Shown here in pieces: positions 1,202 to 1,455 of a stretch of DNA of 36,368 bases (position 1 is the stretch's first letter; the number at the start of each line of letters is the position of its first letter). The translations under genes and the position numbers were made by a program. Source of the stretch: Planctomycetaceae bacterium. GTDB lineage: Bacteria > Planctomycetota > Phycisphaerae > Phycisphaerales > Zrk34. The stretch is taken from NCBI GenBank assembly GCA_002685935.1, contig NYZD01000167.1:1-36368 (forward strand). Direction: 5' to 3'. The notes under the pieces were generated by a model. It saw only the letters and a list, made by a program, of their open reading frames with translations, did no database searches and was not told where the DNA came from.

Positions 1202-1411
1202 TCACCCCTTCGCCGCTTCCACCATCGCAAGGATGCCCGCCCGTAGCGGCGCAGGGAGGGACGGCCAAGCGTCGATCAGCGGGGTCAGATCGGTGTCGTT
1301 TTCGATGATTTGCGCCAAGCGGAGCGCCAAGACGTCAGTGCGGTCCGCGCCCGTCTTGTCACAAGTGACAAGTTGTTCAGGTAGTTGTGGTGAATCCGCT
1401 TCCGATGTTCC
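1202..1411 (-). pseudogene. C-terminal remnant resembling planctomycete tyrosine recombinase tails
   Basis: Minus-strand codons from 1411 to a TGA at 1202-1204 encode about 69 residues ending in LTPLIDAWPSLPAPLRAG then ILAMVEAAKG. The pattern of a short acidic stretch, AWPxLPxxIR-like helix and ILAMVxA ending is one I associate with C-terminal tails of tyrosine recombinases in planctomycetes; this is recollection, not a database result. There is no start codon or catalytic domain attached: upstream the frame runs straight into the tRNA-Leu fragment at 1412-1455. The simplest reading is a deletion that joined the end of an integrase gene to the 5' half of its target tRNA. It could instead be the end of another small protein family carrying the same tail. 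Confidence 0.45.
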
Positions 1412-1455
1412 CCGGATTTTGAATCCGGCGCGTCTGCCAATTCCGCCGCTCTGGC
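1412..1455 (-). tRNA. tRNA-Leu(CAA), 5' portion only (truncated)
   Basis: On the minus strand from 1455 the sequence reads as an acceptor 5' strand GCCAGAG, a leucine-type D-arm (GGCGGAATTGGCAGACGC) and a perfect anticodon stem CCGGA/TCCGG around loop TTCAAAA, giving anticodon CAA at 1419-1421. After 1412 a long variable arm, a T-arm (GGTTCRANYCC) and an acceptor 3' strand are expected. None is present; the sequence turns into the recombinase-like reading frame. The base at position 8 would be C instead of the near-universal T. I therefore read this as a truncated, non-functional tRNA-Leu. A promoter-like element is retained upstream. Confidence 0.75.

Follow-up and report, generated by a model that had tools for sequence, protein, structure and literature searches.

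A planctomycete contig of 36,368 nucleotides (NYZD01000167.1, assembly GCA_002685935.1), called the window here in its whole length, carries on its minus strand a piece of a tRNA-Leu(CAA) gene that runs into a frame encoding a 69-residue tail. The window very probably holds the attachment junction of an integrated element whose lambda-like tyrosine integrase gene contains the phage-type attachment site (attP), the gene being split by integration. Judged from its sequence, the 69-residue frame is the C-terminal tail of a tyrosine integrase, separated from the rest of its gene, and not, as a first-pass annotation had proposed, part of the scar of an island that integrated at a tRNA gene and then destroyed it. 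The tail is found joined to a tRNA piece because recombination at an attP inside an integrase frame normally yields such a join. In relatives, sequence comparison showed the split of the gene, the continuity of its frame, a whole catalytic set before the split, unsplit genes, arm-like repeats and constraint on the tail at the protein level.

Tails, partner halves and frame continuity in related elements

When 294 genomes of Planctomycetota were searched with the 69-residue tail, 19 of them matched, at 29 places altogether, and a profile built from 27 tails gave matches in 101 of 392 Planctomycetota genomes. When the DNA preceding each of the 29 tails was inspected, nearly all of them lay directly after tRNA gene sequence. 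In most cases this was the antisense T-arm plus acceptor, in others the 5′ or the 3′ part in sense orientation, and in some a whole tRNA. The tail consensus is DPDLAxxxxAWPxLPxAIRAGILAMVxA, in which the W, the LP and the A keep their positions across many families and tRNA targets. The codon-position diversity over 35 distinct tails was 0.35/0.23/0.57 (positions 1/2/3), which looks as expected of a constrained coding sequence. The tail matched no Pfam family, and tblastn of the tail against phages and plasmids gave weak matches only, with less than 60% identity. In a pattern search of the genome_contigs set, 32 of the 90 matches were relatives of the tail: 30 of them bore planctomycete labels, one was from Armatimonadota (L129) and one from an unnamed bacterium, other phyla being sampled unevenly. 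Among these loci, at least L133 and L134 look weak. A planctomycete available in culture, Paludisphaera soli, has two tails (L117 and L119), which may be decayed.

The partner halves were looked for in the DNA that follows the tails. Thirteen tails were examined with 60 kb of downstream DNA, and in 11 of them the tRNA piece occurred again on the same strand, 3.7–23 kb further on, at a tyrosine-integrase open reading frame (ORF) reading into the piece. The same arrangement was present in 13 of 19 further tails, so that in 24 of the 32 genome tails the tRNA piece was repeated on the same strand 3.7–36 kb downstream inside an integrase ORF. Three additional tail/integrase pairs (L124, G396 and the viral contig L229) brought the number of paired elements to 27. 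When the two halves were joined through the core, a single ORF composed of the catalytic domain, a tRNA-coded stretch and the tail was obtained in 27/27. A 28th pair, C192, located in the window's own genome, was out of phase, which makes 27/28 in phase overall; were the phase random, simple arithmetic would give this result a probability of about 1e-12, the pairs (e.g. G002 and G034) not being fully independent.

The tRNAs targeted included those for Leu, Val, Lys, Ala, Arg, Asn, Ser, Met, Asp, Gly and Ile. The tRNA was intact at the integrase end in 24 of the 27 paired elements; concerning the other three, it was intact at the tail end in G086 and inside the element in G396, and none was recognised in G198. 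The same type of junction occurred in the single-contig genomes G331, G361, G352, G368 and G287. When the same script was applied to 14 genome_contigs or viral tail loci with up to 10 kb of flank, a pair was found in one (L124).

Concerning the anatomy of the integrases, the residues R234, K261, H324, R327, H350 and Y360 (numbering of the G331 integrase) were invariant in the 11 aligned integrases, in all of which the six precede the core and thus the split. In a Pfam scan, the three integrases tested matched PF00589 and none matched PF16795 (Phage_integr_3), while one also matched Phage_int_SAM_1 below its cut-off. Direct repeats, often tandem units of about 10 bp, were found about 10–180 nt before and 40–90 nt after the core. 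Compared with mismatched pairs, the arm-like repeats flanking the core were above the 95th percentile in 22/27 pairs and above the 99th in 15/27. The attP core and the paired arm-like repeats fall within the DNA for a linker predicted to be disordered.

Unsplit genes were found as well. One of 24 viral-contig integrase loci, L241, has the catalytic domain and the tail in a single frame of 533 aa, on a contig with neighbouring terminase (phrog_2, 6.5e-34) and helicase genes. An AlphaFold2 model of L241 (mean predicted local distance difference test score, pLDDT, 71; 15 sequences) displayed a disordered linker at residues 387–498 and a two-helix tail (helices 502–507 and 514–526, pLDDT about 65–78), and Foldseek returned full-length lambda Int as the top PDB match of this model. 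Among the loci examined outside the viral-contig set, the lone frame with both catalytic domain and tail was L081 (the same place in G306 as L050). The viral contig L229 is split like the window, with a sense 5′ tRNA-Arg part and the tail at one end, while the opposite end has the integrase and an intact tRNA-Arg(TCG). Most of the remaining integrases among the 24 viral-contig loci have an end without a recognised tail. In three of these contigs (L235, L246 and L247), related integrases run past the tRNA-derived core into tails of unrelated sequence; given these, the occurrence of attP inside the integrase gene may be broader than the present tail family.

Three further tail loci can be recorded. 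In L129 (7444–7887; Candidatus Zipacnadia), the sole named tail locus outside Planctomycetota, the tail follows an intact tRNA-Ser(GCT), with no partner within the 10 kb examined. In the viral contig L135 (IMGVR_UViG_3300050015_001122, 210–737), the tail follows an apparent antisense tRNA piece, with no partner in the 10 kb downstream. In L161 (G231; 1–963 and 836–1114) there is an apparent tandem integration: a second integrase immediately precedes the tail and runs through the same tRNA-Gly core, though the frame differs.

The window junction and the tRNA-Leu(CAA) gene

The features of the window that concern the junction and its neighbourhood are the following, all on the minus strand:

1412–1455, minus: 5′ part of tRNA-Leu(CAA), with the acceptor 5′ strand, D-arm, anticodon arm and recombined attachment core, in register with the tRNA of G395
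1205–1411, minus: integrase C-terminal (IntC) fragment, i.e. linker plus conserved C-terminal tail (profile match at 1205–1327; stop codon at 1202–1204)
1370–1388, minus: candidate P′ arm-type repeat ACAACTacctgaACAACTt, 23–42 nt beyond the core, a weak candidate read from the sequence
500–796, minus: ORF of 98 aa on the element side, with no Pfam family
3–467, minus: N-terminal region of the type I restriction methyltransferase HsdM, interpreted as cargo of the element (PF12161, HsdM_N, 5.4e-10; PADLOC MTase_I, 4.1e-37), the gene being cut by the contig end
1590–2588, minus: gene of the URO-D family, interpreted as host chromosome flanking the junction (PF01208, 6e-13)

From 1455 to 1412, the minus strand of the window tracks the intact tRNA-Leu(CAA) of G395 (L192), a genome of the same family, through the anticodon arm, and it diverges at 1411 (DNA match of the tRNA piece, 96% over 45 nt, E-value 4.8e-13). 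A reading frame goes through the tRNA piece into the 69-residue tail and stops at 1202. The final 41 residues of the tail match the tail profile at 9.8e-19, the window tail being one of the 27 sequences from which the profile was built. The T-arm and the 3′ acceptor are really absent from the window, because ARAGORN found no tRNA and Rfam no family in it. Paired arms were seen in other elements, and the repeat of the window is unpaired since the partner half is missing.

Much of the first-pass annotation was thus borne out, namely that the tRNA gene keeps its D-arm and anticodon arm, that its T-arm and 3′ acceptor are replaced at 1411 by a reading frame, that this frame ends like a planctomycete integrase tail (the tails of the relatives continue tyrosine integrase frames), and that HsdM follows beyond the tail on the same side, which places a restriction locus on the element side. 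On the other hand, the promoter it had ascribed to the tRNA piece was not recovered: a scan of 1000–1800 for sigma-70-type promoters found none, and a TTGACA hexamer is present upstream. An ORF of 178 aa (1202–1738) that starts upstream of the tRNA piece was rejected as a credible gene.

The best parallel to the window is the element G361a, which has the same tRNA, in sense orientation, and the same reading frame through it. In G361a, the tRNA 5′ part and 157 bp of DNA upstream of it are duplicated in a 195-bp repeat; at the opposite end, 21 kb away, the tRNA-Leu(CAA) gene is intact and overlaps the integrase gene in its catalytic half. From this parallel, the window would therefore be the tail end of an element running off the contig, and we infer by analogy that the catalytic half, together with an intact tRNA-Leu(CAA), is located on the partner end that the assembly lacks. 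So, of the proposal that an island integrated at its tRNA site and destroyed it, the integration at tRNA-Leu(CAA) stands, while the destruction is not supported, G361a keeping an intact tRNA.

In G396, a genome of the same family as that of the window, an element of about 8 kb (L205, 5063–13236) splits the host tRNA-Leu(CAA) via a 13-nt core and contains a complete replacement tRNA-Leu(CAA) (L205, 8745–8830); its integrase gene is also split, in phase. The window, whose other end is missing, may correspond to either G361a or G396. Considering the eight other genomes of the family that were compared, tRNA-Leu(CAA) is intact in seven (L192–L198), and the copy of G396 is element-borne. The comparison with relatives at the URO-D gene, which had been suggested as a check, thus gave seven intact tRNA genes and no empty site, as no match to the URO-D neighbour was present within the 1.5 kb flanks of tRNA-Leu(CAA) in L192–L198. 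In the assembly of the window's genome (3.49 Mb, 198 contigs, 78.8% complete) an intact tRNA-Leu(CAA) was not found, in agreement with the first-pass annotation, but the far end of the element lies beyond the contig end, and with it the partner half. Of the nine PF00589 matches in this genome, those examined do not continue into tRNA-Leu(CAA), and C101 stops at the edge of its contig.

Concerning the cargo, restriction genes were present in the three elements inspected: HsdM in the window, type III restriction genes in G361a, and type IIG plus SNF2/PLD genes in G331.

Proposed mechanism and its alternatives

In the circular element, the integrase gene would consist of N-terminal domains, the catalytic domain, a long disordered linker and the conserved two-helix tail, with attP (P arm, tRNA-derived core and P′ arm) within the linker-coding DNA. 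Recombination with a tRNA gene, as the sequences of relatives show, cuts the coding frame, and the catalytic part survives the cut. Beyond the core, this part then terminates in sequence of the tRNA or of the chromosome, while the tail is stranded at the opposite end of the element beside a tRNA piece, as in the window. Int would carry the tail in the circle and would be without it once integrated. As the tail could be part of Int in the circular form alone, the circle is where selection on it would have to act, and the tail would therefore most likely serve integration, for instance in synapsis or protomer contacts. The chances seem about even that the tail acts in integration and that the tail-less integrated Int is idle or specialised in excision, i.e. 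that there is a built-in direction switch. With slightly less confidence than that, it can be suggested that Int senses its own state via the structure of its gene, the tail-bearing form of the circle integrating and the tail-less form serving excision or silence. If this were true, directionality would be written into a DNA rearrangement, and a separate switch may be unnecessary.

Other interpretations of the tail were discarded. A separate excisionase gene is opposed by the continuity of the frame through the core, a group I intron by the intact anticodon arm and the attachment repeats in relatives, and pure chance by recurrence.

Several observations weigh against a split integrase gene at the junction. 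For the window, the claim is drawn from relatives, the partner half being absent from its assembly. In the same genome, C192 (L181, tRNA-Thr) has a short integrase and misses the phase by one base, while C116 (L190) is a 2.2 kb relic with tail, core and tRNA-Thr but no integrase. Eight of the 32 genome tails are without an in-phase partner (G361b, G361c, G361d, G361e, G372a, G325, G319 and G377a), some of the contigs being short; among these, G377a has a tRNA-His repeat but a decayed integrase, and G361d resembles a false tail. Within the pairs, G293 was scored as such with a truncated integrase (209-aa join), G373 has a repeat with a 2-nt length difference, and ten of the pairs were used to build the integrase profile. 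The unsplit L081 is a partial copy whose N-terminus is missing. Finally, a tail-specific constraint was invisible, by codon count, in the sole close pair compared (G002/G034).

It is unlikely, though it deserves consideration, that the enzyme is a suicidal integrase as in archaeal SSV, with the split inactivating Int and the element trapped until an intact Int arrives from elsewhere. The gene logic is the same as in SSV, where split genes preclude excision without an intact copy according to a passage of PMC8371274, and unsplit genes were rare among the loci examined (L081, identical to L050, and L241); however, the catalytic part stays whole, unlike that of SSV, and belongs to PF00589 and not to Phage_integr_3. 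It is also rather improbable that the tail is a by-product of an integrase frame that happens to cross attP, its end having no role and its split no regulatory effect. This would agree with the fact that all the catalytic residues remain in the larger piece, so that the integrated Int may work unchanged, and with the unrelated tails that follow the core in L235, L246 and L247, but neither the W, LP and A fixed across families and tRNA targets, with an excess of third-position diversity, nor the frame continuity kept in 27/28 pairs would be expected from it.

The dead scar of the first-pass annotation, left by an island that destroyed its tRNA site, has very little probability. Although the search of the window assembly for an intact tRNA-Leu(CAA) was negative, and G396 is a genuine split of this gene, that assembly is 78.8% complete, the far end of the element is beyond the contig, and intact tRNAs were seen at the integrase end in 24/27 pairs, at the tail end in G086 and inside the element in G396, with none recognised in G198. 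Even harder to believe is a chance resemblance or a chimeric assembly that put a tRNA fragment and an unrelated ORF together: the assembly is a draft of 198 contigs and the junction is near a contig end, but the same kind of junction in many independent genomes, including single-contig ones, refutes this explanation for the type by recurrence.

Taking the split integrase gene as the preferred reading, its logic extends through a bacterial phylum and also to viral contigs, the catalytic part remaining whole and only a conserved tail being removed. Compared with each other, the tail-bearing and tail-less forms of one enzyme make a natural experiment on the choice of direction by integrases. Each stranded tail is in addition an easy marker pointing to one end of an element. 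Databases contain annotated integrases with odd tRNA-derived peptides at their ends, and the split of the gene may account for them.

Comparison with known systems

The planctomycete enzymes share with lambda-type integrases the R, K, H, R, H, Y set (11/11), lambda Int being the best fold match, and apparently also the arm-like repeats on both sides of the core (22/27 pairs), which are putative arm sites. In lambda, attP is outside the coding frame, whereas the planctomycete core and arm-like repeats are coding sequence. There are also some phage int genes whose very end is overlapped by attP. In the integration-dependent immunity of actinobacteriophages, attP is within the repressor gene and integration trims the C-terminus of the repressor; the gene restructured there is thus the repressor, while in the planctomycete elements it is the integrase itself. 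That integration restructures a phage gene in those systems is mentioned in a passage of PMC10865867. The same source deals with the tRNA-dependent lysogeny of the mycobacteriophage Fionnbharth, in a part where the attP of the integration plasmids is in an intergenic region upstream of int (PMC10865867). Going by this source, G396 is similar in that the host tRNA-Leu(CAA) is split and not rebuilt while the element carries a whole replacement tRNA of the same isotype, and different in that its integrase gene is split as well.

In the open-access literature, no description of a bacterial integrase split by its own attP was found, which is not proof of absence, and a passage of a 2021 review describes integration that splits the integrase gene as exclusive to archaea (PMC8371274). 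In the corresponding parts of this review, SSV-type integrases (SSV1, pTN3, pT26-2) have attP inside the integrase gene, integration leaves two gene parts at the element ends, and Phage_integr_3 (PF16795) is stated to be the domain of archaeal suicidal integrases (PMC8371274). The planctomycete genes are like these in that attP is inside the integrase frame (27/28 pairs in phase; unsplit L241 and L081) and in that integration splits the gene between the two element ends. They are unlike them in that the hosts are bacterial, in that the domain is PF00589 and not PF16795 (3/3 scanned), in that the complete catalytic set is in one piece, only a helical tail of about 30 aa plus linker being cut off, and in that attP, with its arm-like repeats, sits in a disordered linker. 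The planctomycete family is not a member of the archaeal suicidal group, because its Pfam domain is different, its hosts are bacterial and its catalytic part is undivided.
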